DNA of 31,180 nucleotides from a virus. Every line of letters begins with the position of its first letter. Position 1 is the first letter of the stretch. A program made the position numbers and the translations under genes. A model generated the notes under the pieces. It had not been told where the DNA came from. It saw only the letters and a list, made by a program, of their open reading frames with translations, and did not search any database. Shown here piece by piece: positions 2,256-30,583 of the stretch. The stretch covers positions 1 through 31,180 of the IMG/VR virus record IMGVR_UViG_3300032296_000343. One strand, given 5' to 3'.

Positions 2256-2265
2256 TATATTTATA
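2256..2265 (+). promoter_or_regulatory. Candidate late-promoter motif (TATATTTATA)
   Basis: TATATTTATA lies in the 47-base gap before the EF-hand protein gene, 31 bases before its ATG. The core TATTTATA recurs at the same kind of position before at least seven other genes in the window. It resembles the Bacteroidota -7 box (TAnnTTTG) with the last base changed. It is also the reverse complement of the T4 late promoter box TATAAATA. Promoter activity is inferred from position alone. Confidence 0.4.
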
Positions 2266-2296: not shown

Positions 2297-3016
2297 ATGA
2301 AAAAATCACAATTATTGGAACTTATTAAAAATGTTGTAAGAGAGGAGCAAGACTATCAACAACTATTTAAACATATGTTAGATAAAGTTGGTAAATCAAT
2401 TACCGATATGTCTGATGATGAAAAGAAGAAATTTTTTAACGCGGTAGATACTGCTTACAAAGCTAAATCAGAAGGAAAATTAAGAGGATATAATGAAGCT
2501 GAATTAACTGCGGGTCAAAAGAAAATTGATACCGATGGTGATGGTGAGATTGAAGGTTCCGATTTAGCAGCATTAAGAGCTGGTAAAAAAGTAGAAGAAG
2601 AAAACCCAGGGTTGTGGGCTAACATAAGAGCTAAAAAAGCCAGAGGAGAAGAACCTGCACATGGTAATTCTGATGCACATAAAGATGCGGTAAAAGCTGG
2701 TAAAGAAATAAACAAAAATGAAGCGGGTACTCCTATCGATTTCAAGTGGCCAAAAGGCAACACTTCAAAAGAAATAGAAGAGTTGGAAGCCGAGTATAAA
2801 AAATTAATTGAAAAAGGTAGTGACATACTTGAAAAACAAAAACAATTAATAAGAAAAGAACCACTTACAGGAGAATACCCTTGGGAAAATTATGATAAAT
2901 GGCCAACCAAACTTAAAATAGAAGTAGAAAAACTAGAAAGGGAATTCGAAAAAAACAACGCGAAAACAACCGAAATGGGTAAAAAATTATTTAAATTAAA
3001 AGGATTTTCCCGATGA
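2297..3016 (+). CDS. Head-region protein with a single EF-hand-type calcium loop
   Basis: The protein has 239 charged residues. Residues 78-89 form an EF-hand-like loop (DTDGDGEIEGSD): Asp at positions 1, 3 and 5, Gly at 6, Ile at 8 and Asp at 12, as in EF-hand or dockerin calcium loops. A motif near residues 105-120 (PGLWANIRAKKARGEEP) precedes a Lys/Asp-rich segment, and the C-terminal half is coiled coil. The N-terminus (MKKSQLLELIKN) is a short basic/hydrophobic helix like those of several neighbouring genes. The stop overlaps the next start (ATGA), indicating translational coupling. A role as an internal or core head protein is plausible but unproven. Confidence 0.75.
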   Translation: MKKSQLLELIKNVVREEQDYQQLFKHMLDKVGKSITDMSDDEKKKFFNAVDTAYKAKSEGKLRGYNEAELTAGQKKIDTDGDGEIEGSDLAALRAGKKVEEENPGLWANIRAKKARGEEPAHGNSDAHKDAVKAGKEINKNEAGTPIDFKWPKGNTSKEIEELEAEYKKLIEKGSDILEKQKQLIRKEPLTGEYPWENYDKWPTKLKIEVEKLEREFEKNNAKTTEMGKKLFKLKGFSR

Positions 3017-3462
3017 TAAAGTTAAAGTCGCTATTAATTGAAGTGATGAAAAAAAAAAGTGTAAATGAGAATTTAGCTTTAGGAATACTATCAACACTAA
3101 CTGGTATTATTATTGGCAAAATTGCATTATATTATATAGGAGAATTAATAGAAAAAGGAATTAAGTATTTTAATGGTTCTAAAGAAACTGAAAAAGAAAT
3201 ATCAGGAATATTAGATAAATTAGAATCAAATAAAAAATTTATAAGTGATGTTACTGAATATATTGAAAAGAATAACGGAGTAAACGCTGCAGCTGCAGAC
3301 AAAATGGTTAAATCTGATTATATTCAATCTCTTATTAAAAAAGTAAATAATGAAGATGTTGATAAAGAAGATATTGAAAGTGGTTTAAAAAATATATTTT
3401 TGAAAGCTTGGTCTAACGATAGTAAGAAAGCAATTGAAAAGGTTAAAAACGATATAAAGTAA
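3013..3462 (+). CDS. Small protein with one transmembrane segment, function unknown
   Basis: The protein has 149 residues and starts within the stop of the previous gene (ATGA overlap). Residues about 20-45 form a strongly hydrophobic segment rich in Leu, Ile and Gly, long enough to cross a membrane. Both flanks are charged, and the C-terminal ~100 residues are Lys/Asp/Glu/Asn-rich helices. The N-terminus (MIKLKSLLIEVMKKK) is basic/hydrophobic and contains an L-I-E triplet, the kind of site cut by T4 gp21-type proteases. It may anchor a prohead-assembly intermediate to the membrane or be an internal head protein. Neither role can be decided from sequence. Confidence 0.7.
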   Translation: MIKLKSLLIEVMKKKSVNENLALGILSTLTGIIIGKIALYYIGELIEKGIKYFNGSKETEKEISGILDKLESNKKFISDVTEYIEKNNGVNAAAADKMVKSDYIQSLIKKVNNEDVDKEDIESGLKNIFLKAWSNDSKKAIEKVKNDIK

Positions 3463-3463
3463 G

Positions 3464-4054
3464 ATGAATAAAGGATTATTGATAGAAACCCATTTGTTTG
3501 AAGCAAAACTTCAACAAGAAGAAAATGGAACATATTTGGTAAAGGGCATCTTACAAAGAGCAGGTGCTGCTAATCAAAATGGTAGACGCTATCCTAAAGA
3601 AATTTTAGAAAGAGAATGTGGAAAATACAAACAACTCATTAAAGAACGTAGAGCTTTAGGTGAGTTGGACCATCCAGATTCTCCTGTTATCAACTTAAAA
3701 AATGTATCCCACAACATTAGAGAAATCTATTGGGAAGGTGATGATGTATGTGGTGTAGTAGAAATTCTTTCAACTCCATCTGGTAATATTTTAAAAGAAT
3801 TATTAAAAAATAATATCCGTTTAGGTATTTCATCACGAGGATTAGGTTCAGTAAAGGAATTAAGAGATGGGACCGTAATGGTTCAGGAAGATTTTGAATT
3901 GGTTGGTTGGGATTTTGTTTCCAATCCATCCACACATGGTGCATTTATGGCACCAATGAATGAATCGAAGCAGTGGGCTAAAATGGCAGAAGAATGTGGT
4001 AAGTGGTGCAAATCACAAGATTTAATGAGAGAGATTATAATAGAATTAAATTAA
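3464..4054 (+). CDS. 21: Prohead core protease (T4 gp21-like)
   Basis: This is the 196-residue maturation protease of the head. In T4-like phages it sits in the prohead core, digests the scaffold and trims the major capsid protein so that the head can expand. The sequence shows the expected landmarks: His70 in a GELDHP motif, Ser123 in GISSRG (the catalytic Ser context of this serine-protease family), and Asp150 in VGWDFVSNPS. An N-terminal NGRRYP motif at about residues 40-44 is also typical. It lies upstream of the scaffold and capsid genes, as in T4, although five small genes are inserted between. L-I-E and L-F-E triplets in its own first 13 residues could be self-cleavage sites. Start: ATG one base after the upstream stop. 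Confidence 0.9.
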   Translation: MNKGLLIETHLFEAKLQQEENGTYLVKGILQRAGAANQNGRRYPKEILERECGKYKQLIKERRALGELDHPDSPVINLKNVSHNIREIYWEGDDVCGVVEILSTPSGNILKELLKNNIRLGISSRGLGSVKELRDGTVMVQEDFELVGWDFVSNPSTHGAFMAPMNESKQWAKMAEECGKWCKSQDLMREIIIELN

Positions 4055-4061
4055 CAAAAAT

Positions 4062-4328
4062 ATGGCAAAATTAGTAAATTTTATACCAGGCAGAAACGCA
4101 ACTCCGAAACCAACAATCAAAGAAGCATTGGATGATTTGGATACCAACTTACCAGTATCTATAGAACGATATTTGGATAAAATGGTAGCTCAAATTAAAG
4201 GAATGAGTCTTTCTCGTAAAAAAGAAATTCTTGTATTAGCAAAGGTAATCGATGCTATGGGAATTGATAAGCAAGAAATGATGAGATACGTTTCAAAAAT
4301 TAAGAAAAACGATATATTAAAGAAATAA
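4062..4328 (+). CDS. Small helical protein of unknown function
   Basis: The protein has 88 residues and is mostly helical and basic. It has a Pro-containing N-terminus (FIPGRNATPKP) followed by three amphipathic helices. It has no membrane segment or recognisable motif. It starts seven bases after the protease stop with the aaaatATGGC context typical of this phage, and ends one base before the next gene, so it is tightly co-expressed with the protease. It may be a prohead core component or assembly cofactor; this is inferred from position only. Confidence 0.7.
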   Translation: MAKLVNFIPGRNATPKPTIKEALDDLDTNLPVSIERYLDKMVAQIKGMSLSRKKEILVLAKVIDAMGIDKQEMMRYVSKIKKNDILKK

Positions 4329-4329
4329 T

Positions 4330-4965
4330 ATGATACGTTTAAAAAATTTACTCAAAGAATCAGAAGAGCTTCAACAACTCCCAACAGAGTTGAAAAGACA
4401 CTTTTTGGAAATTATTTCTACCTATGGACAGCATAGAGAAGGAATGCGTAGAAAATCTGACATCAGAACTATTGCAGAAACTTTAGGTGGGATTGCAGAT
4501 GCTGCTCAAGAATACACTTTAAGAGAGGGTGGTGATTGGTTCGATAGAGTTACAATTAAGCGTAACATGAATGAATTGAAAAAATTACAATCTGCATTCG
4601 AAAAAGAATCTCTTGAAGCAAAAGCACAAGAAGAAAGATTAGAAGCTCTATATGAAGATATGGGACACGTATTGGGTAGATACTTTGAAATTGCTGATGT
4701 ATCCGAAGAAGTTATGAAGCAACGATTGGGTAGAAGTTCAATTCAAGAAGCTAAAAAATACGATATTGGTTCTGGCTATATGGGAAATGGTTTAACTATT
4801 TGGAATAGAGCAGAAGAACAACATGGTGATTACAAAATAATCGCACATATTTCACCTGATGGAAAACTATCTATTAGAGATAAACAATTACCTGCTGATT
4901 TAAAGAAGATGTTCCAAATTTGGGCAGATTCTATGGCAAAGGGTAATATGGGTCCAAAATACTAA
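4330..4965 (+). CDS. Helical head-region protein with capsid-targeting-like leader
   Basis: The protein has 211 residues. The N-terminus MIRLKNLLKESEEL closely parallels the leader of the membrane-segment protein upstream (MIKLKSLLIE): a basic/hydrophobic helix ending in L-x-E. Residues about 20-135 are long charged helices. The C-terminal ~65 residues appear to be a small beta-containing domain (IGSGYMGNGLTIWNRAEE, then DYKIIAHISPDGKLSI). The gene lies one base from the genes on both sides. I do not recognise the family. The leader and location suggest an internal head protein processed by the adjacent protease. Confidence 0.7.
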   Translation: MIRLKNLLKESEELQQLPTELKRHFLEIISTYGQHREGMRRKSDIRTIAETLGGIADAAQEYTLREGGDWFDRVTIKRNMNELKKLQSAFEKESLEAKAQEERLEALYEDMGHVLGRYFEIADVSEEVMKQRLGRSSIQEAKKYDIGSGYMGNGLTIWNRAEEQHGDYKIIAHISPDGKLSIRDKQLPADLKKMFQIWADSMAKGNMGPKY

Positions 4966-4966
4966 T

Positions 4967-5338
4967 ATGGAAGAATTAGCATCATTATTATTACAAAGTA
5001 GAACTCAAGCTCACTCATTTCATTTAGGAGTTAGGGGAGTAGGTTCGCATTCTGCACATCTTGCATTGGGTGAATACTACGATTCTATTGGTGGTTTAAT
5101 TGATGGGTTAGTAGAAACATATCAGGGTAAAGAAGGTTTAATCCAAATATCTGGAATAGGAACATTGGATAAAAATAACGATATTAAAAATATCATTAAG
5201 TATTTTGAAACTTTATGTGGAATGGTAGCTAGATTAAGACAAAATCCTAAATTAAAAGATACTTGGATACAAAACGATATTGATACGGTTGTATCTCTTT
5301 TATATAGAACAAAATACAAATTAGTAAATCATCAATAA
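4967..5338 (+). CDS. Dps/ferritin-like four-helix protein (DUF5856-like)
   Basis: The protein has 123 residues, predicted as a helical bundle. The first 50 residues show the spacing of Dps ferroxidase ligands: His19, His31 (+12), Asp46 (+27) and Glu50 (+31). These match the intervals between H51, H63, D78 and E82 of E. coli Dps. The surrounding pattern (FHLGVRG, then HLALGEYYD, then IDGLVETYQG) also parallels Dps (FHW-V-G, then LH-FE-LYD, then VD-IAE). The usual extra Asp at +16 is absent, with Glu36 next to that position. Related small phage proteins (DUF5856) occur in T4-like phages. At 123 residues it is shorter than a typical Dps (about 160). Metal binding and oligomerisation are inferred, not shown. 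Confidence 0.6.
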   Translation: MEELASLLLQSRTQAHSFHLGVRGVGSHSAHLALGEYYDSIGGLIDGLVETYQGKEGLIQISGIGTLDKNNDIKNIIKYFETLCGMVARLRQNPKLKDTWIQNDIDTVVSLLYRTKYKLVNHQ

Positions 5339-5343
5339 TAATT

Positions 5344-5532
5344 ATGATTATAATTGATATTAAAAACGGTAATATAGAACTAGCTCTGAAACAATATAAG
5401 AGAAAAGTTCAGAACATTAAACAAGTAGAGCAGTTAAGAGAACGGCAAACATTTGTTAAACCATCCGTTAAAAATAGATTAGAAAAAGAAAAAGCTATAA
5501 GAAAGAATCAAAAAGATTTGGGTTTTCTTTAG
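5344..5532 (+). CDS. rpsU: Phage-encoded 30S ribosomal protein bS21
   Basis: The 62 residues match bS21 along the whole length: an IIIDIKNGN start, ALKQYKRK at 14-21, LRERQTFVKPS at 31-41, then a basic helical tail. Host bS21 is about 64 residues in Bacteroidota and 71 in E. coli. bS21 joins the 30S platform near the 3' end of 16S rRNA and affects mRNA selection; in Flavobacterium it helps hide the anti-Shine-Dalgarno sequence. From memory, a Tyr near residue 54 of the flavobacterial protein takes part in this, and the aligned phage residue is Arg53. The gene has no Shine-Dalgarno site, is the last of the head block, and is followed by a terminator. It is probably made late and incorporated into host ribosomes. 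Phage-encoded bS21 is known from other large phages. Confidence 0.88.
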   Translation: MIIIDIKNGNIELALKQYKRKVQNIKQVEQLRERQTFVKPSVKNRLEKEKAIRKNQKDLGFL

Positions 5533-5550
5533 TTTTCTAAAAAATTTATA

Positions 5551-5558
5551 TATTTATT
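5551..5558 (+). promoter_or_regulatory. Near-match to the TATTTATA motif before a terminator
   Basis: TATTTATT lies in an A/T-rich stretch just after the bS21 stop and just before the terminator. It differs by one base from the recurrent intergenic motif. As a promoter it would fire straight into the terminator, so its role is doubtful. It could instead drive a short leader RNA for the capsid operon. Confidence 0.2.
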
Positions 5559-5565
5559 TTCGAAT

Positions 5566-5589
5566 ATCCTATCTCATATAGGATTTTTT
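5566..5589 (+). terminator. Intrinsic terminator after the bS21 gene
   Basis: A perfect 7-bp stem (ATCCTAT / ATAGGAT) with a 5-base loop (CTCAT) is followed by a run of T. It closes the head-gene block and separates it from the scaffold and capsid genes. Confidence 0.75.
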
Positions 5590-5702
5590 AATTAAAGTAC
5601 AGTTGATTAACGAATACTCTTTCATATAAGATGTGACCGAACAATCAGCATAATCCTATTGGAGTTTTTTAGAAATAACTTCACAATCAACATACAACAA
5701 AA
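5590..5702 (+). promoter_or_regulatory. Leader region of the scaffold-capsid operon
   Basis: About 110 bases lie between the terminator and the scaffold start. Bases 5611-5632 are a degenerate direct copy of the terminator region at 5561-5584 (both begin CGAATA and contain CATATA.GAT) but without the T run. A weak TCC-tatt-GGA hairpin followed by six T lies at 5654-5670 and could be an attenuator. The last ~30 bases before the ATG are A/C-rich and unstructured, favourable for initiation without a Shine-Dalgarno site. A promoter for this highly expressed operon is expected here, but I cannot place it with confidence. Confidence 0.4.
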
Positions 5703-6953
5703 ATGGCAAATTCAAAATTATTGAAAGAAGCAATCGCTGATGCCAAAGCCGTTAAAGAAACCGCTTTAGCAAACGCAAAACTTGCGCTTGAAGAGGCATT
5801 TACTCCACGACTTCAATCTATCTTATCTCAAAAGATGAGAGCAGAAGCAGAAATGGAAGATGATGCAGAACAAGTAGACGAGGAATTAAGTTCAGATGGT
5901 ATCGGGTCTAAATCAGACGCCGGATATCCACAAACTCCTGGTGCAAATCCATCTTACGATGCAATTACTGACTTATCAGTAGGCGTAAAGAAAGATAGTG
6001 GTAAGCCAGAGGCAGCAGGTACTGACTACAAAAAAGTAGCAGATATTAACGAAGAAGATGAATTCGACTTTGGTGGTGAAGAAGAATCTGATAAGGATGC
6101 AGAAATTGCTGAATTAAAGGCAAGATTAGCAGAATTAGAAGGTGAAGACGAATTCGGTGGTGCAGATGAATTCGGTGGTGAAGAAGAAGGTGACCCTTTC
6201 GCAGCAACAGAAGAAGAAGACCCAATGGCAATGGCTGGTGGTGAAGATGATTCTTTTGGAGAAGACCCAATGGAGGGTGAAGAAGAAGACGAAATGGGAT
6301 TGGAAGCTATCATCAGAGAATTAGAAGCACAGTTAGGTGACGAAGAAGAAGAACCAACAATGGAAGGTGAAGAAGAAGAAGAAAACCCTTTTGCAGCTAA
6401 TGAAAATTTAGCAGATGGTTCAGAAGCAGGTACTGATAAAGGTGAAGACCCTAAAGTAGTAGTAACTAACGAAGGTGAAGAAGAAGATGAAGATACGGTT
6501 GATTTAGCAGAAATCTTGAGAGAAATGGAAGATGAATATGGTTCAAGTGAAGAAGAGCCAAAGGCAGAATCTCTAAAGAAAGACTTGAATGAGGCGTACC
6601 GAACTATCAGAACTCTTCAAAAAACTATTAATGAGGTGAACTTATTGAACGCCAAATTATTGTTTGCAAACAAATTATTCAGAGCTCACAACATGACTAA
6701 CGAACAAAAAGTGAAAGTGATTGAAACTTTGGATAGAACAAAGTCAGTAAGAGAGGTTAAATTGGTGTTCTCTACATTAGCAGAGAATTTCAAATATACT
6801 TCATCTTCTAACAAATTAACTAAAAAGGCTATTTCAGAAGGCATCGCTAGTAAAGCAGTTAAATCTACAAAACCTGCTCAATCTAAAGCGGTAATCAATG
6901 AATCAGCTAATTTTGCTAACAGATTTAAGAAATTAGCAGGTATTATTAAATAA
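5703..6953 (+). CDS. 22: Prohead scaffolding (core) protein (T4 gp22-like)
   Basis: The protein has 416 residues, larger than T4 gp22 (about 270). It forms the internal core around which the capsid assembles and is later degraded by the gp21 protease. The middle (about residues 45-290) is extremely acidic, with runs of Glu/Asp and repeated EEDP, EFGG and GEEEE motifs encoded by gaa/gat repeats. The C-terminal ~110 residues are a basic helical domain with the conserved gp22-type pattern: LNAKLLFANKLFRAHNMT, then KVKVIETLDR, then VKLVFSTLAENF. The N-terminus (MANSKLLKEAI) again has an L-K-E triplet. The gene lies immediately before the capsid gene, 29 bases apart, as in T4. The long acidic region causes several spurious overlapping frames. 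Confidence 0.88.
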   Translation: MANSKLLKEAIADAKAVKETALANAKLALEEAFTPRLQSILSQKMRAEAEMEDDAEQVDEELSSDGIGSKSDAGYPQTPGANPSYDAITDLSVGVKKDSGKPEAAGTDYKKVADINEEDEFDFGGEEESDKDAEIAELKARLAELEGEDEFGGADEFGGEEEGDPFAATEEEDPMAMAGGEDDSFGEDPMEGEEEDEMGLEAIIRELEAQLGDEEEEPTMEGEEEEENPFAANENLADGSEAGTDKGEDPKVVVTNEGEEEDEDTVDLAEILREMEDEYGSSEEEPKAESLKKDLNEAYRTIRTLQKTINEVNLLNAKLLFANKLFRAHNMTNEQKVKVIETLDRTKSVREVKLVFSTLAENFKYTSSSNKLTKKAISEGIASKAVKSTKPAQSKAVINESANFANRFKKLAGIIK

Positions 6954-6982: not shown

Positions 6983-7696
6983 ATGAACATTAAAAAATTA
7001 ATGAGCGGCGCGAACCCACAGAGCGTGATGCTTGAGCAAACCAGAGGTTTGAAAGGCAAATGGGAAAGAACAGGTCTACTTGAAGGAGTAGGTTCTGAAA
7101 CTACAAAGCATGGTATGGCAGTAATGCTTGAAAACCAAGCAAAACAATTATTGGATGAGGCAACTCGTACTGGTACTTCTTCAGGTTCTGAAGAGTGGGC
7201 TGGTGTAGCTCTTCCTTTGGTAAGACGTATCTTCGGTTCTATTGCAGCGAAAGAATTCGTTTCAGTTCAGCCAATGAACTTACCATCAGGTCTTATTTTC
7301 TACATGGACTTCAAATATGGTACTAACCCAGCGGGTAATCCAAATTTCACAGGTTCATCTTTGTTTGGTAACAGTGGTACTTTCGGTAAAGATTCTTTAT
7401 CTCCAGCTGGTAACAAATTAGGTTCAACTCAATCTCCAGAAGGAGGTCTTTACGGAGCAGGTCGTTTCGGATACACTATCAACAACGCTACTGCTGCTAT
7501 CACTGCTACTTTTGCATCTGCATCTTTAGCTGATATTGATTATGATTTATCTTCTGGTTCAGTTTCTGCATCATTCGCAGGTAACACATTGAAGAAAATC
7601 GTTGTAGCTTTACCTTCTGATGCTGATTTCAATGGTGTTAGAGCTTTCGAACCAACTTTATTAACAGGTTCTGTAACAGGATACTATCCACAATAA
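6983..7696 (+). CDS. 23: Major capsid protein (T4 gp23-like), N-terminal part, ends at an in-frame TAA
   Basis: This is the first 237 residues of the gp23-type HK97-fold capsid protein. A charged propeptide precedes a likely gp21 cleavage site after Glu59 (QLLDE|ATRTG; T4 gp23 is cut in a comparable L-T-E|A context). It is followed by PLVRRIFGSIAAKEF and VSVQPMNLPSG, which match the conserved T4 gp23 segment (VRR...VQPMNSPTG). The frame meets TAA after ...GYYPQ. Translation in the same frame continues without another stop into the C-terminal half (TTKNGSNVEFVATVTGLSN). Together they make 537 codons including the stop, close to the 521 residues of T4 gp23. This is therefore one gene broken by one codon, not two genes. 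Start: ATG after a TTTAAA leader. Confidence 0.88.
   Translation: MNIKKLMSGANPQSVMLEQTRGLKGKWERTGLLEGVGSETTKHGMAVMLENQAKQLLDEATRTGTSSGSEEWAGVALPLVRRIFGSIAAKEFVSVQPMNLPSGLIFYMDFKYGTNPAGNPNFTGSSLFGNSGTFGKDSLSPAGNKLGSTQSPEGGLYGAGRFGYTINNATAAITATFASASLADIDYDLSSGSVSASFAGNTLKKIVVALPSDADFNGVRAFEPTLLTGSVTGYYPQ
7694..7696 (+). other. Single in-frame TAA stop inside the major capsid gene
   Basis: The TAA is flanked by CAA (Gln237) and ACA (Thr239), and reading frame 2 is otherwise open from 6983 to 8596. No insertion or deletion is needed; one substitution (for example CAA, GAA or AAA to TAA) explains it. TAA is the normal stop of nearly every other gene here, so codon reassignment is unlikely. A base-call error, a nonsense variant or stop readthrough remain possible. 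Confidence 0.85.
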
Positions 7697-7837
7697 ACAA
7701 CTAAAAATGGTTCAAATGTTGAATTTGTTGCAACTGTAACTGGTTTATCTAATCTTGCAACTGTTGGTGTATCATTAGCATATCACGTACAACCTACTGA
7801 TATTTCTCGTGGTGATTTCGAAGATAGAGGAACAGAT

Positions 7838-8596
7838 TTGGCAATTCCAGAAATTGAATTGGAATTGAAATCAGAGCCTATCGTTGCTAAAACACGTAAG
7901 TTGAAAGCAATTTGGACTCCTGAATTGGCGCAAGATTTGAACGCATATCACTCTGTAGATGCAGAAGCTGAATTGACTCAAATGTTATCTGAATACATCT
8001 CTTTGGAGATTGATTTGGAAATCCTTGAGATGTTGCAGCAGAACGCATTCACAACTGAATACTGGTCATCTAAAGTAGGATATGAGTGGACTGGTGCTGG
8101 ATTTGCTATTGATTCTAACGCAGCAGCTGCTTCGGCTTACCAAAAGAATACTTGGTTCCAAACTTTGGGTATCAAATTGCAGAAAGTATCTAACAAAATT
8201 CACCAATTGACTATGCGTGGTGGAGCAAACTTCTTGGTTGTTTCTCCAAACGTAGCTACAATTTTGGAATCAATGAACGGATTCTCTGCAAACCCTGGTA
8301 AAGATGCGTTGACTTTCGCAGCAGGTGTAACTAACATCGGTTCTATCTCTAACAGATATGATGTTTACAAAAACCCTTACATGACTGAAAACGTAATCTT
8401 ATTAGGTTTCAAAGGTTCTAACTTCTTTGAGACTGGAGCAGTTTACGCACCGTATGTACCATTGATTATGACTCCTTTAGTGTACGACCCAACCAACTTT
8501 ACTCCACGTAGAGGTGTTATGACTCGTTACGCAAAGAAAATCGTAAGACCAGAATTTTACGGTAAGATTCTCGTAGATGGTTTAGAAACTCTTTAA
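7838..8596 (+). CDS. 23: Major capsid protein (T4 gp23-like), C-terminal part
   Basis: This is the second half of the gp23-like capsid protein. The TTG given as its start is only the first alternative start after the stop; homologous coding continues back to 7697 without interruption. The stretch ISRGDFEDRGTDLAIPEIEL and the following VAKTRKLKAIWTPELAQDL are typical gp23 P-domain and spine sequence. The tail end (RPEFYGKILVDGLETL) is the expected C-terminus. No start-like A-rich leader or Shine-Dalgarno site precedes the TTG, so independent translation is unlikely. A functional virion needs this half joined to the N-terminal half, so the intervening stop must be an artefact or be bypassed. 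A terminator follows 24 bases after the stop. Confidence 0.82.
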   Translation: MAIPEIELELKSEPIVAKTRKLKAIWTPELAQDLNAYHSVDAEAELTQMLSEYISLEIDLEILEMLQQNAFTTEYWSSKVGYEWTGAGFAIDSNAAAASAYQKNTWFQTLGIKLQKVSNKIHQLTMRGGANFLVVSPNVATILESMNGFSANPGKDALTFAAGVTNIGSISNRYDVYKNPYMTENVILLGFKGSNFFETGAVYAPYVPLIMTPLVYDPTNFTPRRGVMTRYAKKIVRPEFYGKILVDGLETL

Positions 8597-8620: not shown

Positions 8621-8650
8621 GAGGGAGCAGTAATGTTCCCTCTTTTTTTT
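8621..8650 (+). terminator. Intrinsic terminator after the capsid gene
   Basis: A 6-bp stem GAGGGA / TCCCTC with a 10-base loop is followed directly by eight T. It ends the scaffold-capsid transcription unit. An apparent upstream start at 8633 for the next gene falls inside this hairpin and is therefore rejected. Confidence 0.8.
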
Positions 8651-13059: not shown

Positions 13060-14076
13060 ATGGCAAACGTAAGAAAAAGAATACTAGAATTAACTCCATT
13101 ACCATCCGCATCATTAGATACAACAATTGTTGGTGTAGATGGTGGTACAACTTATAGAATAGAATTGGATGTTCTTGCAGATGCAGTTACATCGAGAGTA
13201 AATATATTAGATAGAGATAGATTAACATCGTTAGAATCCGTAACATCTTCGTTTGAATCAAAGGGTAGAAGTGTTATAAGTTCATCTGCACAAATAACCG
13301 CATTTGGATTTATTAGTTCATCAGTAACGATACCAACGGGAACTATATCTTCATCTGCACAAATTACATCATTTGGGTTTATATCTCAATCAGTGGATAT
13401 AACTTCGTTAAATTCATTTACATCATCTCAACAAACATTAAATACTGCATTCACAAATGGTATTAGTGCAAGATTACAAACATCTTCATTTAACGATTTT
13501 TCCACATCAGTAGATAGTAGAATTATTGCAGCAACAAACGAACAAAGTTTAACACATTTAGTAACTACATCTTCATTTAATGAATATACTGCAAGTATTT
13601 CGACTGGTAGTTTAGTAAATAGATTAAACACAATCGAAAGTGTAAGTGGAAGTTGGATTACTGAAAGTGAAACGGGTTCATTTTTGACAAGTTTAAATGG
13701 AGCAATAAGTAGTTCTGCACAAATAACTGCATTTGGATTTGTTAGTGGTAGTTATGAAACAACAGGTAGAGGTATCATATCCTCATCTGCTAATTTAGTA
13801 ACTACATCATCTTTCAATTCTTATACTGCAAGTATTTCGACTGCAAGTTTAGTAACATCTATTTCAAATTTAAATTCAGCAACATCATCATATTTGACAT
13901 CATTGAGTGGAGCAATAAGTTCTTCATCTCAATTAACATCATCATTTGATACAAGATATGCATTAAGTGCTAGTTTTGTTAGTTCATCAAATGTATCATC
14001 AATACAAACTATAACATCGGCTTCATACGCAGTATTAACACCTGTAAGTGGGACTCTTTACATTATAATAGGTTAA
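13060..14076 (+). CDS. Ser/Thr-rich fibre protein with SSAQIT repeats
   Basis: The protein has 338 residues. Residues 1-60 are a distinct N-terminal domain (LPSASLDTTIVGVDGGTTYR) that probably attaches to the virion. The rest is low-complexity Ser/Thr/Gly sequence. It contains three copies of an ISSSAQIT-FGFIS unit (about residues 73-86, 96-109 and 217-230) and a duplicated VTTSSFNEYTASIST unit, typical of trimeric beta or coiled-coil shafts. It ends in a short hydrophobic IIIG with no lectin or chaperone domain, so it may be a shaft, whisker or adaptor rather than a tip. It is the first gene of the 17-kb fibre cassette. Confidence 0.7.
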   Translation: MANVRKRILELTPLPSASLDTTIVGVDGGTTYRIELDVLADAVTSRVNILDRDRLTSLESVTSSFESKGRSVISSSAQITAFGFISSSVTIPTGTISSSAQITSFGFISQSVDITSLNSFTSSQQTLNTAFTNGISARLQTSSFNDFSTSVDSRIIAATNEQSLTHLVTTSSFNEYTASISTGSLVNRLNTIESVSGSWITESETGSFLTSLNGAISSSAQITAFGFVSGSYETTGRGIISSSANLVTTSSFNSYTASISTASLVTSISNLNSATSSYLTSLSGAISSSSQLTSSFDTRYALSASFVSSSNVSSIQTITSASYAVLTPVSGTLYIIIG

Positions 14077-14079
14077 GTT

Positions 14080-14847
14080 ATGCCAGTATTTGGAAATGCA
14101 ACTAATATAAGATTTAACGGAAATTCCGCAACAAAGGCATTTTTGAATAATAATCAAATATGGCCAATAACATCCGCAGTAACTACCGAAAATTTACTTT
14201 TACATTATAACACATTTAATACATCATCATATAATGGTAGTGGAGCAACTATTACCGATATAAGTGGTAATAGTAGAAATGGAACAATTGCAGGTTCTCC
14301 AACTTGGACTAGTAATTATTTTACTTTTGTTGATGACCGTATAACGACACCAAATTTAAGTTCACTAATAACATCGGCTAATGAAACTCATTCGGTAGAA
14401 TTATGGATATACCCAACTGATAATGGGGTGTTAGTTCAGTATAATAATACTATAAATCCAAACGCATCATATCACCATTCCGCCATAGAAATAGTTGGTG
14501 GTAATTTAGAAGTTGGACTTTGGGGTGGAAGTTCAGTAGTATCAACCGGAAATATAGGTGTAGTTTCATTTAATCAATGGCATCAAATAGTTTTAACTTA
14601 TAATGGTTCAGTATGTAAAGGATATATTGATGGTGTATATAAGGGTTCGGTAAATGTATCGTGGGACTCACCAATGAATAGTTCTATGGCATTTTATATG
14701 AATTTTGGTTTTGCAGATTTTACAAGTCAAGGTGATGGAACTAATTTTGATGGTAGATTTGGTATAATGAGAGTGTATAATAAAGCATTGACAGATGCAG
14801 AAGTGTTGAGTAATTATAATGCTGACGAATCTAATTACGGATTATAA
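14080..14847 (+). CDS. LamG/concanavalin-like lectin-domain virion protein
   Basis: The protein has 255 residues. Residues 1-45 form a short N-terminal segment (GNATNIRFNGNSATKAFLN). Residues about 45-250 fit a LamG/concanavalin A-like jelly roll: LLLHYNTFN, then ITDISGNSRNGTI, then HSVELWIYPTD, then NQWHQIVLTYNGSVCKGYIDG, ending with GRFGIMRVYNKALTDAEVLS and YN. This strand order and the IMRVYNKALTDAEV motif are characteristic of LamG-like domains that bind carbohydrates. It starts three bases after the upstream fibre gene and is probably a receptor- or glycan-binding adhesin. Confidence 0.75.
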   Translation: MPVFGNATNIRFNGNSATKAFLNNNQIWPITSAVTTENLLLHYNTFNTSSYNGSGATITDISGNSRNGTIAGSPTWTSNYFTFVDDRITTPNLSSLITSANETHSVELWIYPTDNGVLVQYNNTINPNASYHHSAIEIVGGNLEVGLWGGSSVVSTGNIGVVSFNQWHQIVLTYNGSVCKGYIDGVYKGSVNVSWDSPMNSSMAFYMNFGFADFTSQGDGTNFDGRFGIMRVYNKALTDAEVLSNYNADESNYGL

Positions 14848-14857
14848 TAAAGAAAGA

Positions 14858-14865
14858 TATTTATA
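14858..14865 (+). promoter_or_regulatory. TATTTATA motif unusually close to a start codon
   Basis: The same core as the other candidate promoter motifs, inside AGATATTTATAGG. It lies only four bases before the next ATG. If it were a -10 element the transcript would start at or after the ATG, so it either serves the following gene, marks a leaderless message, or argues against the promoter reading. Confidence 0.25.
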
Positions 14866-14869
14866 GGAT

Positions 14870-15289
14870 ATGGCAAACTTTATAAGATTAAAACAAATAG
14901 AAAGTGGTTCGGCGTTAAATACGGCGGCGCAAGTTGGTAACGATTTTTCGCAATCTGTAATTAATGTTATTACATCCGAAGTTGGTGCAGTATTACCCGA
15001 AGGAGTTATATCTTCATCGGCACAAGTTGTATTATCAGATACTACGGGAAGTCTCACAGGTTCTAGAGTAGTTGGTGGAACACAAGCATCATCAATAGAA
15101 TATCAAAATATACTAAATAGACCAACATTAGTTTCTGGTTCATCACAAGTAATTGATATATTAAATCCATTGAACCAACATTCCGCATCTATTAACCAAT
15201 TCACCACATCGTTGGATAATACATTTGCAACAGATGCAGAACTTACCTTATCTCAATCAAACATTAACATCGACATGGGTGAATGGTAA
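14870..15289 (+). CDS. Short fibre-type protein with an NRPTLVSGSSQV module
   Basis: The protein has 139 residues. The N-terminus (MANFIRLKQIESGSALNTAA) differs from the Mtd-like N-terminal domain of the larger fibres. The middle holds an ILNRPTLVSGSSQVIDILNP module that recurs, with variation, in the 1513-residue and 530-residue fibres downstream. It ends abruptly in NIDMGEW, similar to the acidic-Gly-aromatic ends of two other fibres. The small size suggests a truncated paralogue or a short shaft segment. No enzymatic or lectin domain is visible. Confidence 0.65.
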   Translation: MANFIRLKQIESGSALNTAAQVGNDFSQSVINVITSEVGAVLPEGVISSSAQVVLSDTTGSLTGSRVVGGTQASSIEYQNILNRPTLVSGSSQVIDILNPLNQHSASINQFTTSLDNTFATDAELTLSQSNINIDMGEW

Positions 15290-15337
15290 AAAAATATAAA
15301 TATAACATATGAAACATTCGGTTCATAAAAAAAAACA

Positions 15338-15345
15338 TATTTATT
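15338..15345 (+). promoter_or_regulatory. Near-match promoter motif in the leader of the large fibre gene
   Basis: CATATTTATTA lies 44 bases before the fibre start, one base off the recurrent TATTTATA. The same 100-base gap also has an exact T4-type TATAAATA at 15295-15302. Bases 15290-15389 contain nothing else that I recognise, apart from an A/C-rich unstructured stretch before the ATG. Confidence 0.3.
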
Positions 15346-15389
15346 AAAGTATAATCGTAATCAAACTAAAAGAGATTAACCAACACAAT

Positions 15390-17828
15390 ATGGCACAAAT
15401 AATTAAACACAGACGCGGTAGTTTAGAAGCCCTATCCGCAGTAACATCATCCTTGCAGAAAGGTGAATTAGTAATTGCTTCAGGCTCATCTAACTTATCG
15501 ATAACGAATGGTGCCTCAATTGTATTCGCAGTTCCAGAAAATGGACAGGTACAAGCGGTAAATAGATTCCTAGTAGGAGCAAACGCACCAAATACATTTG
15601 CGGCTGGTACTTACAACGGAATGGTGAAAGGTGTTCCTTACTACGCAAGTGGTAGTTCTACCTTATATTTGTTGGGTGAAGGAGCCAATGATATTCCGGA
15701 TTTAACGGGTAACATTAGTAACTTTAGTTCATCGGTTGCATCATCAATCAACGCATTAAGTGCATCAATTGGTAGTGGTGCAATTGGCACATCGGTAACA
15801 CAATTAAACACATTTAGTGGTAGTACTTTAGTTAGTTTAGGAGCACTAAATTCATTCAGTTCTTCTCAATTAACTCAAAATTCAACTTTAGCAACTTATA
15901 CGGGTTCAGTTGAAACGAGATTAACAGAAATTGGTGTAGTTAGTGGAAGTTTAATAGCATCAGCATCAGCAGCTAAAACTACAAACGATTCACAAGGAGT
16001 TTCAATAACAAATTTAAATACTTTTAGTGGTTCTCAATTAACTCAAAATTCAACTTTAGCAACTTATACGGGTTCAGTTGAAACGAGATTGACTGAAATT
16101 GGTGTAGTTAGTGGTTCGTTAATTAGTTCTGCAAGTGCAGCAGCAATTGCAAATGTAAATCAAAATACATTTACTGCATCAGTTGAAACGAGATTAACAG
16201 AAGTTGGTGTTGTAACAGGTTCATTAATTAGTTCAGCATCAACTGTATTAACTAGATTTAATGCGTTTAGTTCATCATTCGATACGGCATTTGATATTAG
16301 TGGAACGAATGTAACGATTGCTGGTAACTTAACAGTAGCTGGTACACAAACCATTGTAGATTCTACGACTGTTCAAATTGGTGATAATATTATCGAATTA
16401 AATGGTAGTGGAGCAGCAAATGGTGGTTTATTAGTTAAAGACCCAACTGCACCTAATACGGTAAGTGGTTCTTTACTTTGGGATTCTACAAATGATTATT
16501 GGAAAGGTGGAGCAGTAGGTGCGGAATCTAAATTTTTAAGAGCAGGTGGTGATAATGTTGTAACCGCATCTTCGCAAGTATTACTATCACAATTAGATGG
16601 GTTTTCAGCATATGATTCGGCATTATCAACTGTAACAGGTTCGTTAATTACTTCTGCATCAGCTGCAAAAACAACAAATGACTCGCAAGGTGTAAGTATA
16701 ACAAACTTGAATACAACATCAGCAAGTGTAAATACTTCAATTGCAGCTTTAAACTCATATACATCATCTAATACTTCTACAAACGCATTAAATGCATATA
16801 CTGCATCAGCTGAAACAAGATTTACTGAAATTGGTGTAGTAAGTGGTTCATTGATAGCATCAGCATCAGCAGCTAAAACTACAAACGATTCACAAGGAGT
16901 TTCAATAACAAACTTAAACACATTTAGTGCAAGTGTAAACACTTCTGTAACGGCATTAAATTCATCCTCTGCATCACAACAAGTATCAATTGATACATTA
17001 AATTCATTTAGTGGTTCTCAATTAACTCAAAATACTGCATTAGCAACAGTAAGTGGTTCATTAATTAGTTCCGCATCCGCTGCTAATATTTCAATAACAA
17101 ACTTAAACACATTTAGTGGTTCTCAATTAACTCAAAATTCAACTTTAGCAACTTATACTGCAAGTGTTGATACGAGATTGACTGAAATCGGCGTAGTTAG
17201 TGGTTCATTGATTTCATCGGCATCCGCTGCTAGTGTTTCTATCACTAACTTAAATTCGAAATCAGCTAGTGTAGATATTTCTATTACGAATATCAACTCA
17301 TTTACTTCATCTTTTGGAACAACATTCAGTTCTTCAGTAGATAGTAGATTAGATACATTAGAAGGAACTGGAACAATACAAGGAGTAGGTACTGGCAATA
17401 ATGTAACATTTGCAAAAGTAACAACGACAGGTGATGTAGTAGTAGGTGGTGATTTAGTAGTACAAGGTAATACTGTAACATTAAACACTGCAACATTAAT
17501 AGTAGAAGATAAACTAATTACATTAGCAAGTGGTTCAACATCATCTGCAACCGCAGACGGTTCCGGATTTGAAGTAGCTGGAGCAAATGCAAATTTTGTT
17601 TATCAACATTCTACAACTGCATTTACTTCATCGGTAGCATTAATTGCACCAGCTGTAACCGCATCCTTTAATTTGGGTTCGGCAGCAGGAAGTTCTAAAC
17701 GAGTGGCATTCCGAAACACAAATGGTAATTTGGATTTAGTTCCAACCGCAAGTGTAGCTGGAGATTTACTACAATGGGATGGCACTGATTTTGTAATGAG
17801 TAATGTAATTGATGGTGGTTCATTCTAA
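15390..17828 (+). CDS. Large modular tail fibre with Mtd-like N-terminus and LTQN/TEIGVVSGS repeats
   Basis: The protein has 812 residues. The N-terminus (IIKHRRGSLEALSAV, then LQKGELVIASGS) resembles the N-terminal domain of Mtd-type phage receptor-binding proteins (RRGT... GEL pattern), probably the baseplate-attachment end. Long repeats follow: FSGSQLTQNSTLATYTGS / TRLTEIGVVSGSLI occurs in full three times, with shorter copies. A beta module (AGNLTVAGTQTIVDS, then SLLWDSTNDYWKGG) lies at about residues 310-390, and a second GDLVVQGNTVTLN-type module at about 685-720. It ends in MSNVIDGGSF with no S74 chaperone or lectin domain. The 60-base identity between two repeats 168 bases apart shows recent duplication or recombination. 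A terminator follows directly. Confidence 0.8.
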   Translation: MAQIIKHRRGSLEALSAVTSSLQKGELVIASGSSNLSITNGASIVFAVPENGQVQAVNRFLVGANAPNTFAAGTYNGMVKGVPYYASGSSTLYLLGEGANDIPDLTGNISNFSSSVASSINALSASIGSGAIGTSVTQLNTFSGSTLVSLGALNSFSSSQLTQNSTLATYTGSVETRLTEIGVVSGSLIASASAAKTTNDSQGVSITNLNTFSGSQLTQNSTLATYTGSVETRLTEIGVVSGSLISSASAAAIANVNQNTFTASVETRLTEVGVVTGSLISSASTVLTRFNAFSSSFDTAFDISGTNVTIAGNLTVAGTQTIVDSTTVQIGDNIIELNGSGAANGGLLVKDPTAPNTVSGSLLWDSTNDYWKGGAVGAESKFLRAGGDNVVTASSQVLLSQLDGFSAYDSALSTVTGSLITSASAAKTTNDSQGVSITNLNTTSASVNTSIAALNSYTSSNTSTNALNAYTASAETRFTEIGVVSGSLIASASAAKTTNDSQGVSITNLNTFSASVNTSVTALNSSSASQQVSIDTLNSFSGSQLTQNTALATVSGSLISSASAANISITNLNTFSGSQLTQNSTLATYTASVDTRLTEIGVVSGSLISSASAASVSITNLNSKSASVDISITNINSFTSSFGTTFSSSVDSRLDTLEGTGTIQGVGTGNNVTFAKVTTTGDVVVGGDLVVQGNTVTLNTATLIVEDKLITLASGSTSSATADGSGFEVAGANANFVYQHSTTAFTSSVALIAPAVTASFNLGSAAGSSKRVAFRNTNGNLDLVPTASVAGDLLQWDGTDFVMSNVIDGGSF
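15863..16140 (+). repeat. Tandem 168-base fibre repeat (two copies), related copies downstream
   Basis: The segment starting at 15863 is repeated at 16031 with 60 identical bases and then continued similarity (56-residue period). Further copies lie near 17121 in the same gene and, diverged, near 26169 and 26781 in the last S74 fibre gene. These are substrates for homologous recombination between fibre genes. Confidence 0.75.
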
Positions 17829-17833
17829 ATACT

Positions 17834-17864
17834 AAACCCCCCTTCTAAAGAGGGGGTTTTTTAA
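17834..17864 (+). terminator. Intrinsic terminator after the 812-residue fibre gene
   Basis: An AAACCCCC / GGGGGTTT stem with a 10-base loop and T run begins within ten bases of the stop codon. It is the most GC-rich hairpin in the window. Confidence 0.85.
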
Positions 17865-17895
17865 AATTATAAATGAACAAAAAACATCAATCATA

Positions 17896-18546
17896 ATGGC
17901 TCAAAAAATATTACAAAAACGGTCGCTAATAGCAGGAAAAGTTCCTGATACTGGCTCCCTATTAGTAGGCGAGTTAGGTGTAAACGTATATGATGGTAAG
18001 GTTTATTTACACAAATCTGGTTCTTCACAATCAATTCAAACATTAGTTACTACCAATTCGATTACCACTGGTTCAATAACATTGACTGGAACGGGTTCAT
18101 TTGGTGAAGCTAGTATTGATTTTGATGCAAACATTGGACAAGATTTATTTGTAACTAGGGATATTGTTGGTAATGGTGATATTGATATTGCGGGAGCAGT
18201 ATCCGCATCAGTAGTATCTTCTTCTTTATTTATTGGTAGTGGTGCTGGATTAACAGGAATTACCGCTTCAATGCGACCTGATGATTTTGATTTCAATTCA
18301 GACCCTTACGCTGGAACAGTTGGATATATACAAGGTAGTGGTTCTCTTTATAAAGTAGCAACTACTCCTACCGCAGTCGAATTTAGATACAATGATGAAG
18401 TTAGAGGAACTTTTACAACTACAAATGGTTTTAGTGGTTCACTTTATGGAATTGGAGATGTATTGGCATTTAGTGGTTCAGTAGCTAATAGACTGACAGC
18501 TTTAGAAGCATCTTCTTCATTGGGTCCAGATGCTGGAGAATTTTAA
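17896..18546 (+). CDS. Short tail fibre with Mtd-like N-terminus, paralogue A
   Basis: The protein has 216 residues. The N-terminal ~90 (ILQKRSLIAGKVPDTGSLLV, then GELGVNVYDGKVYLHKSG) share the attachment domain of the downstream 266-residue fibre, including an almost identical TTNSITTGSITLT stretch. The two are tandem paralogues. A SGDI-type beta region and a GAGLTGITAS motif (as in gp12/fibritin-type fibres) follow. The C-terminus ends in ALEASSSLGPDAGEF with no tip domain. It lies alone between two terminators, so its expression can be set independently. Short length suggests a short fibre or a capped shaft. Confidence 0.75.
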   Translation: MAQKILQKRSLIAGKVPDTGSLLVGELGVNVYDGKVYLHKSGSSQSIQTLVTTNSITTGSITLTGTGSFGEASIDFDANIGQDLFVTRDIVGNGDIDIAGAVSASVVSSSLFIGSGAGLTGITASMRPDDFDFNSDPYAGTVGYIQGSGSLYKVATTPTAVEFRYNDEVRGTFTTTNGFSGSLYGIGDVLAFSGSVANRLTALEASSSLGPDAGEF

Positions 18547-18564
18547 ACGATTATAAAAATATCA

Positions 18565-18574
18565 TATATTTATA
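18565..18574 (+). promoter_or_regulatory. Candidate late-promoter motif (TATATTTATA)
   Basis: TATATTTATA lies 60 bases before the next fibre gene, immediately followed by the terminator hairpin. This arrangement (motif, then hairpin) also occurs at 5551-5589. Either the promoter reads through the hairpin, or the motif has another role. Confidence 0.35.
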
Positions 18575-18600
18575 AAGGTACTATATAGTACCTTTTTTTA
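18574..18600 (+). terminator. Intrinsic terminator
   Basis: A 9-bp perfect stem AAAGGTACT / AGTACCTTT with a 4-base ATAT loop is followed by a T run. It closes the paralogue A fibre unit. Confidence 0.8.
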
Positions 18601-18634
18601 TTATATAATAATAAATAATCTATAGCTCATATAT

Positions 18635-19435
18635 ATGGCACAAAGTATTATACTAAAGCGTTCATCGCTACCTGGAAAAGTACCCGATACTGGTTCATTG
18701 AATGTTGGGGAAATAGCAGTAAACACTTACGATGGTAAGGTATTTATTAAGCGTTCCGGAAATTTAGATTCCATAGAAGGTATTGTAGTAACAAATTCAA
18801 TCACAACTGGGTCTATAACCTTAACTCGAACGGGTTCCTTTGGGGAATTAGTAGTAACACAAGACGCCAATATAACTAGAGATTTATATGTAACAAATGA
18901 TATTATAGGAGCGGGTGATATTGATATAAGTGGAGATATTACAGGTAGTTCCGCATTATTAAGTGGGAGTTTAATATTAAGTGGTTCTCAAACCATAACA
19001 AACAATTTAACCGTATTAGGTGAAGTAAATGCTAGACAATTTAATATATCAGTAATTTCTTCATCAGTATTATTTCAAAGTGGTTCAACCAAATTTGGAG
19101 ATACATCAGATGATACACATTCATTCACAGGTTCAGTTTCTGTAAGTGGTTCATTTTTAGTTAATGGAACAGAAGTTGGAGTATCAGCAGGACCAAACAC
19201 ATTTGATTTTAATTTAGACCCCGAAGCAGCAGGTACTGTAAACTTCATAGAAGATTCAACTGCTAATACTCTAGCAATAGCAAGGACAGGTTCATTTGAT
19301 ATTTTAATTGGTAATAATACTCATTTATCAGTAAGTGCATCTGCAATAAATGTAACAACTGGCAGTATAACTGCAAACTATATGCACTTGGCAAAATATA
19401 TTTCAGAATCAGGTGATTTAGATTTTAATATTTAA
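18635..19435 (+). CDS. Short tail fibre with Mtd-like N-terminus, paralogue B
   Basis: The protein has 266 residues. The N-terminal domain (IILKRSSLPGKVPDTGSLNV, then GEIAVNTYDGKVFIKRSG) is closely related to that of the preceding fibre. The similarity continues through VTNSITTGSITLTRTGSFGE and the DIIGAGDIDISGDI stretch, then breaks down, so the two genes share the attachment end and differ in the distal part. A module GSTKFGDTSDDTHSFTGSV (about residues 152-170) recurs in the 710-residue fibre as GSNKFGDFSNDTHEFTGSV. It ends in SESGDLDFNI without chaperone or lectin domain. The ATG follows tatatATGGC, with no Shine-Dalgarno site. Confidence 0.75.
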   Translation: MAQSIILKRSSLPGKVPDTGSLNVGEIAVNTYDGKVFIKRSGNLDSIEGIVVTNSITTGSITLTRTGSFGELVVTQDANITRDLYVTNDIIGAGDIDISGDITGSSALLSGSLILSGSQTITNNLTVLGEVNARQFNISVISSSVLFQSGSTKFGDTSDDTHSFTGSVSVSGSFLVNGTEVGVSAGPNTFDFNLDPEAAGTVNFIEDSTANTLAIARTGSFDILIGNNTHLSVSASAINVTTGSITANYMHLAKYISESGDLDFNI

Positions 19436-19437
19436 GA

Positions 19438-19445
19438 TATTTATA
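19438..19445 (+). promoter_or_regulatory. Candidate late-promoter motif before the giant fibre
   Basis: AGATATTTATAC starts directly after the previous stop, and its core ends 20 bases before the next ATG. It matches the extended AGATATTTATA form also seen at 14858, 25617 and 28788. Confidence 0.4.
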
Positions 19446-19465
19446 CAAAACGGAAATAACAATAA

Positions 19466-24007: not shown

Positions 24008-24022
24008 AATAAAAAATAAGAA

Positions 24023-25615: not shown

Positions 25616-25616
25616 A

Positions 25617-25624
25617 TATTTATA
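25617..25624 (+). promoter_or_regulatory. Candidate late-promoter motif before the last S74 fibre
   Basis: AGATATTTATACACA begins just after the TAG stop, 47 bases before the next ATG. The rest of the 56-base gap is A-rich, ends in a run of eight A plus GG, and shows no hairpin. Confidence 0.4.
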
Positions 25625-25671
25625 CACATACATAATAATTTTATTAACGTACTAAAAAAAAGGTAAACTAG

Positions 25672-30573: not shown

Positions 30574-30583
30574 TATATTTATA
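30574..30583 (+). promoter_or_regulatory. Candidate late-promoter motif before the tail sheath gene
   Basis: TATATTTATA lies in the 70-base gap, 35 bases before the sheath ATG. The surrounding gap is A/T-rich without a hairpin terminator, so transcription from the fibre unit may also read in. Confidence 0.45.

Follow-up and report, generated by a model that had tools for sequence, protein, structure and literature searches.

Why does a phage keep a gene for ribosomal protein bS21 among the genes of its head, and does that gene have anything to do with how the capsid messages are translated? bS21 is reported to be the commonest ribosomal protein of phages, and the window analyzed here, a whole stretch of 31,180 nucleotides from an IMG/VR virus record, carries one copy (Table 1). 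A sequence-only reading of the window had described a full-length 62-residue bS21 lying among structural genes, in a phage whose genes lack Shine-Dalgarno (SD) sites, and had proposed a link between this bS21, SD-less translation and the capsid operon.

The identification is sound. In the Pfam search which that reading had proposed, the product matches PF01165 (Ribosomal_S21) with 50 bits against a curated cut-off of 27 (E 2.4e-13), and the match is nearly full length (residues 4-55, profile positions 2-54 of 55). Its PHROG match is 21469, "ribosomal protein S21," the neighbors are head genes, and the closest PDB chains by sequence are the bS21 proteins of 9i5v and 7jil. The predicted model has the two long helices with a short joint that characterize the family (residues 11-35 and 40-58), at a middling confidence (mean pLDDT 78, pTM 0.41); Foldseek returned no match to this model at E 0.001, and its seven weak matches are all ribosome or mitoribosome chains. 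Across 11 relatives of the same length the median dN/dS is 0.14 (49 usable of 55 pairs), and the gene is under strong purifying selection.

Table 1. Features of the bS21 locus and its surroundings in the window
Feature	Position	Strand	Remarks
Late-promoter-like motif TATATTTAT ahead of the gene group 2297-5532, which ends with bS21	2256-2264	+	Exact match
Head maturation protease, gp21 type	3464-4054	+	Peptidase_S77, 1.3e-29; PHROG 207
DUF5856 gene directly upstream of bS21	4967-5338	+	PF19174, 1.7e-12
bS21, 62 residues	5344-5532	+	One open frame, ATG to TAG; Arg53; start without SD
Late-promoter-like motif TATATTTAT ahead of the capsid operon	5549-5557	+	Exact match; kept in aligned leaders
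Structured leader RNA of the scaffold/capsid operon	5564-5685	+	Stems 5566-5572/5578-5584, 5602-5608/5643-5649 (around an inner hairpin) and 5660-5666/5677-5683
Scaffold-like acidic protein (gp22 position), first gene after the leader	5703-6953	+	By position only; no Pfam or PHROG match
Major capsid protein gp23	6983-8596	+	Gp23, 1.5e-12 for the first part; in-frame stop 7694-7696

The T4-like head order of protease (gp21), scaffold (gp22) and capsid (gp23) is present, the scaffold being recognized by its position only, and the site of bS21 corresponds in T4 to the junction of genes 21 and 22. The motif ATATTTAT is enriched upstream of genes in two related contigs (20 against 1.6 expected and 18 against 1.2). 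Exact copies of TATATTTAT on the plus strand of the window begin at 2256, 5549, 9361 and 18565, each upstream of a listed gene; a further plus-strand copy at 30574 lies beyond the last listed plus-strand gene, and there is one minus-strand copy at 15296. Allowing one mismatch, we see no excess over the whole window (55 against 49.9). Because of the enrichment in the two related contigs and the placing of the exact matches, TATATTTAT is likely to be the late promoter of the phage; one copy would then serve the group 2297-5532, with bS21 as its last gene, and another the capsid operon. The earlier placement of bS21 at the junction of the head block and the capsid operon is thus right in that the gene lies between the two, but it is the last gene of the protease unit and not the first of the capsid operon.

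Three further features of the window deserve mention. The in-frame stop in gp23 is a sense codon in all 12 relatives that align there (15 were queried), and is either a sequencing error or the mark of a broken copy. A lectin-like Laminin_G_3 protein (28818-30548) contains a stretch resembling an intein-splicing domain (residues 180-327; 15.4 bits, below the Pfam cut-off of 35.8), and a series of long Ser/Thr-rich frames with internal repeats (13060-27804) resembles tail-fiber proteins.

Presence and absence of bS21 among relatives

We examined 80 loci found through the DUF5856 gene, out of 160 matches to it. bS21 is present in 57 and absent in 20 in which the leader RNA is whole; the remaining three (L336, L348 and L355) are cut by a contig end and were excluded, L336 having the beginning of the leader and no room for bS21. 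The gene is therefore missing from its slot in 20 of the 77 evaluable relatives, and these keep both the capsid operon and the leader. In most of these 20 loci, the slot is taken by a hairpin with a run of T behind it. Other small frames occupy it in L354 (3888-4382) and L357 (4358-4701), between the DUF5856 gene and the leader, so the slot may be a site of changing cargo.

A search with PF01165 found no match in the contigs of 12 of the bS21-less loci, which reach 245 kb and may be incomplete, and exactly one match in each of 15 searched contigs with bS21, including three of the second class described below and two of marine type. On the DUF5856 tree the distribution of bS21 takes at least eight changes, two of which are forced by well-supported branches. 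bS21 is an optional gene at this slot.

These observations tell against the proposed link of bS21 to SD-less translation and the capsid operon. Relatives without the gene keep the operon and its leader, the capsid genes have a late-promoter-like motif and a leader of their own, and SD sites are about as scarce in the two bS21-less contigs measured as in four that carry bS21 (see below). A special tie of bS21 to the capsid operon is not supported.

Residue 54 and the use of SD sites

The comparisons that follow use 109 distinct bS21 neighborhoods kept from viral loci and 80 bacterial loci. The phage proteins comprise the best 80 of 410 matches and the best 80 of 217, both ranked by likeness to the window bS21 or its class, together with 80 of the 160 DUF5856 matches; the bacterial proteins are the best 80 of at least 556, one titled Rhizobium and the others Bacteroidota by title. 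The proportions describe near relatives and not phage bS21 in general.

Arg53 of the window bS21 aligns with Tyr54 of Flavobacterium bS21, a correspondence that the sequence-only reading had given correctly, and the alignment with PDB entry 9i5v likewise pairs R53 with Tyr. Among the matches listed, the phage neighborhoods fall into two classes. In the class of the window, bS21 lies on the same strand as the protease, scaffold and capsid genes and within their unit (26 of 26 loci checked), and residue 54 is Arg in 69 of 74 neighborhoods, His in four and Gln in one. The other class has its head genes on the strand opposite bS21 (39 of 39 loci with a recognized head gene; 15 further loci have none), and residue 54 is Tyr in 33 of 35 neighborhoods and Phe in two. 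A TATATTTAT-type motif lies within 30 bases of bS21 in 18 of these 35 and in none of the 74, again among the matches listed. Tyr occupies the position in all 80 bacterial proteins (best 80 of at least 556), and the C-terminal residues around it likewise differ between the window class and hosts.

Three other positions unite the two phage classes among the matches listed and separate them from the bacteria (best 80 of at least 556): position 23 is Val or Ile in all 109 neighborhoods and Phe in 78 of 80 bacteria, position 27 is Lys in 108 of 109 and Gly in 77 of 80, and position 28 is Gln in all 109 and mostly Thr, Ala or Val in bacteria.

The window protein thus lacks Tyr54, a trait of the Bacteroidia-type bS21 that sequesters the 3′ tail of 16S rRNA. 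Residue 54 was reported as aromatic in all of 61 phage bS21 proteins (Chen et al. 2022, PMC9723584), and on these alignments the window class is a systematic exception to that rule rather than a single odd protein. What is new is a T4-like group that has bS21 inside the head-gene operon and mostly Arg, not an aromatic residue, at this position. Since Arg stands where the host has Tyr54, the phage protein may act differently from the host's, as had been suggested. The gene product is a genuine bS21, and its phage setting is of a known kind; its class, however, is a distinct one without the clamp residue of Bacteroidia.

The host is probably a member of Bacteroidota, because of the nearest bacterial bS21, the capsid DNA matches and the SD-less starts. 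The nearest bacterial bS21 proteins are those of Bacteroidota (best 80 of at least 556), although two of the five sequences in the query alignment were Bacteroidota bS21, which favors such matches. The capsid DNA matches six phage records, four of them of Flavobacterium phage immuto. Against a Bacteroidota host, the protease is closest to that of a Microcystis phage (60.8%, compared with 50.3% for immuto). The Bacteroidota promoter word TANNTTTG is weak evidence: it is mildly enriched in two related contigs (9 against 4.8 expected in G001, 7 against 3.7 in G004) and absent from both the window (0.5 expected) and immuto (2.8 expected). If the host is not a member of Bacteroidota, Arg54 may be ordinary, as Arg is also the aligned residue in the Staphylococcus aureus chain 6fxc.

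The exchange at residue 54 might also be neutral, or Arg might be a substitute contact that holds the 16S tail by stacking or through a phosphate, so that the phage protein acts just as the host's does. The purifying selection on the gene and the prevalence of Arg within the class are consistent with this, as is the use of SD sites, which is unshifted between contigs with and without bS21. However, the constancy of Tyr in the 80 bacteria and the finding that a Y54A mutation alters message choice in Flavobacterium johnsoniae (PMC9976891) indicate that the site is not neutral in hosts, and the adjacent C-terminal residues have changed as well; we consider this explanation unlikely.

No SD-like 5-mer occurs in the 30 bases before bS21 in any of the 109 phage neighborhoods (among the matches listed), compared with an SD before 52 of 80 bacterial rpsU genes and before 25 of 26 of Flavobacteriales type (best 80 of at least 556). 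The window gene has no extended SD, the autoregulatory trait of many Flavobacteriales rpsU genes; the rpsU gene of F. johnsoniae carries such an SD, and ribosomes without bS21 translate it (PMC9976891). With SD-less starts set against SD-bearing host genes, the phage copy may therefore escape host autoregulation. A search of journal papers, mostly open-access ones, and of the phage passages of PMC9976891 found no statement of such an escape.

The description of the phage genes as lacking SD sites holds for related long contigs. Core SD 4-mers stand at 7.7%, 10.2%, 8.2%, and 11.4% in four contigs with bS21 (the first two being G001 and G004, with shuffles of 5.3% and 6.0%) and at 9.3% and 8.2% in two without (shuffles over all six, 5.3%-7.4%), compared with 76.7% in T4 (18.7% shuffled) and 46.3% in Microcystis phage Mel-JY01 (18.2% shuffled). 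Upstream of starts the base profiles resemble that of Flavobacterium phage immuto in being rich in A, and show no G peak like that seen in T4 and Mel-JY01. An automatic count in the window alone, 8 of 29 starts (27.6%, against 8.8% shuffled), at first sight speaks against SD-lessness, but most of these 4-mers sit in or at the end of a preceding overlapping gene, or before a probably misplaced start at 8633. When the sites are listed individually, the starts of bS21, scaffold and capsid in the window have no SD 4-mer.

It could be imagined that Arg54 frees the anti-SD tail and so makes a specialized ribosome that prefers SD-bearing phage messages, those of the capsid operon above all. The Y54A mutation does raise the output of SD reporters in F. 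johnsoniae (PMC9976891), and one contig with bS21, G033, has SD 5-mers at 11 of 176 starts (6.2%, against 2.4% shuffled). Moreover, in a scan for the leader pattern that gave at least 120 stretches, 110 of which were examined, AAGGA(G) lies shortly upstream of the scaffold start in 54 of 67 loci with bS21 and in only six of 18 without. This excess is not upheld in the DUF5856 set (80 of 160 matches), where the motif precedes the scaffold gene in 20 of 54 loci with bS21 and nine of 18 without, nor on the DUF5856 tree, which offers just two firm independent pairs with and without bS21 and no trend. AAGGA(G) is absent before the scaffold start of the window, and the sole strong SD common to two contigs proved to be the coding end of a poly-Gly protein. 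Nor does genome-wide SD use follow bS21: although G033 is slightly above its shuffles, the core 4-mer values given above do not separate contigs with the gene from those without. An SD-preferring ribosome is thus highly improbable; should the anti-SD tail indeed be freed by Arg54, the SD sites of these phages give no visible sign that it is exploited.

The leader RNA of the scaffold/capsid operon

The more novel object at this locus is the leader RNA that adjoins bS21. The 170 bases between bS21 and the scaffold gene are strongly conserved among relatives. An alignment of 36 leaders, of which 35 are distinct, has five helices with 28 pairs in all; pairing is preserved in 99.5% of cells, and 10 pairs have changed on both sides, compared with 2.7 in shuffles. 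The covariation score is 0.169 against 0.100, with none of 500 shuffles as high, and slid partners pair in 35%-47%. Because the last stem is nearly invariant among the aligned leaders, the support specific to it is slight; the version in Mel-JY01 differs, yet pairs. Folded alone, the window strand reaches -27.9 kcal/mol (z -2.4) with the first two stems formed and the last paired otherwise.

With a model of the leader (R1), the window and six related contigs each give one strong copy (>119 bits); for three of these contigs the search covered the first 200 kb only. No score above 27 bits was obtained from two contigs of the second class, a T4 stretch or an immuto stretch, and stretches of P-SSM2, Cr30 and LR756508 gave no match at E 1; a weak match in Mel-JY01 (33 bits, E 0.005) lies directly before the scaffold gene. 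Among the at least 120 stretches of the pattern scan, the scaffold gene follows the leader in 106 of the 110 loci examined, the other four ending first, and bS21 lies directly upstream in 72 of the 94 with a readable upstream side. No Rfam family reaches its gathering score in the window, and permissive scans of two leaders stay far below the cut-offs; blastn of the leader against 50,697 phage records found nothing, and our literature search found no description of it.

The leader is whole in the 20 loci without bS21 and also in G020 and G022, contigs that gave no PF01165 match, and is thus independent of bS21; an element that needs bS21 is ruled out. We also discarded the idea that GGAG in the last stem is an anti-SD target with a link to bS21, as it occurs in 10 of 22 bS21-less loci as well (three have GAAG and nine are unmatched by the pattern). 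The first stem is absent from a standard terminator scan, whereas under looser criteria 70 of 72 were labeled "terminator-like," several being chance stems of A and T only; just past a late-type motif, it is as likely to be a 5′-end stem as a terminator. A role of bS21 outside the ribosome, either in the virion, where its packaging has been raised by Chen et al. (2022, PMC9723584), or bound to the leader RNA to tune capsid synthesis, is in line with the adjacency of the two in the pattern scan but is made very doubtful by leaders that are whole where bS21 is missing.

We tentatively propose that the leader represents an undescribed class of cis-acting RNA that sets scaffold and capsid output in a large T4-like group, with or without bS21 and as far as Mel-JY01; that its invariant internal loop is a site for a protein or ligand, perhaps the scaffold or capsid protein; and that, independently, this bS21 class has given up the tail clamp of Bacteroidia ribosomes. 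As a whole this proposal strikes us as somewhat more apt to fail than to hold. If it is true, infection would bring a new mode of holding the 16S 3′ end. As a candidate for controlling how much capsid is made, the leader concerns uncultured phages of which the searched collection holds many.

Proposed function and comparison with known systems

For bS21 itself, we lean slightly toward a late-made substitute for the host protein, carried as optional cargo by an uncultured T4-like phage, whose gain would be steady initiation-competent 30S subunits for SD-less messages. The gene would close the late head-protease unit, the timing being suggested by the motif at 2256. Its message would be translated by ordinary bS21-replete ribosomes, and outside the host feedback loop because its start lacks the extended SD of rpsU. 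The product would fill the bS21 site of host 30S subunits late in infection, and may outrun the host protein. The conserved core is retained, as is the Lys-Gln at 27-28 common to the sampled phages, but because Arg replaces the Tyr with which the host protein stacks on the 16S 3′ tail, the tail would be expected to be held less tightly or otherwise. The most likely gain would be neither SD recognition nor a special service to the capsid operon.

The Pfam match, the selection on the gene, residue 54 and positions 23 and 27-28, the SD-less starts, the late motif and the Bacteroidota matches are all in keeping with a substitute bS21. So is published work: the SD-bearing rpsU is translated without bS21, ribosomes with truncated bS21 are poorer on SD-less messages (PMC9976891), and a pelagiphage bS21 enters 70S ribosomes (Mizuno et al. 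2019, PMC6375957). Against it stand the absence of the gene in 20 of 77 evaluable relatives (from 80 of 160 DUF5856 matches), a host assignment that is indirect, and the observation that the pelagiphage protein left Escherichia coli ribosomes nearly inactive, with translation down to about 5% (PMC6375957). A clade that has lost the one residue linked to anti-SD sequestration can be set against close relatives in which the gene is missing from this slot; this natural comparison, with or without the gene and with a basic or an aromatic residue 54, suits the existing F. johnsoniae system.

Replacement of host bS21 in connection with the capsid genes, which the sequence-only reading had called untested, has already been published as a proposal, together with expression data. 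Chen et al. (2022, PMC9723584) describe freshwater Bacteroidota jumbo phages in which bS21 lies among head genes and is transcribed late with them, propose that it replaces the host protein and favors phage messages, and count a head gene within ten genes of bS21 in 388 of 900 published phages with bS21. They also treat the Tyr54/anti-SD setting in Bacteroidota phages, which is taken up in the 2023 study of F. johnsoniae, itself speculating about phages (PMC9976891).

Four known systems may be set beside the window bS21. That of Pelagibacter phage HTVC008M is likewise viral and has been shown to enter 70S ribosomes in E. coli, but belongs to an alphaproteobacterial lineage and host (PMC6375957). 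The F. johnsoniae protein is of the same family, its chain 7jil being among the nearest solved ones, but it has Tyr54, and 25 of 26 sampled rpsU genes of its type carry the SD that all the listed phage genes lack. RpsU of Microcystis phage Mel-JY01 is also encoded between protease and scaffold, with the weak leader match before the scaffold gene; it differs in its bS21 lineage and longer N-terminus, and Mel-JY01 genes use SD sites. The jumbo phages of Chen et al. (PMC9723584) have bS21 near the gp21 protease, scaffold and major capsid protein, with late expression proposed and an SD-less host group, and share Val/Ile23 and Lys27-Gln28 with the window class among the matches listed. In those phages bS21 runs antisense to the head genes and has an aromatic residue 54, whereas in the window class it lies on the same strand, inside the unit, and mostly has Arg.
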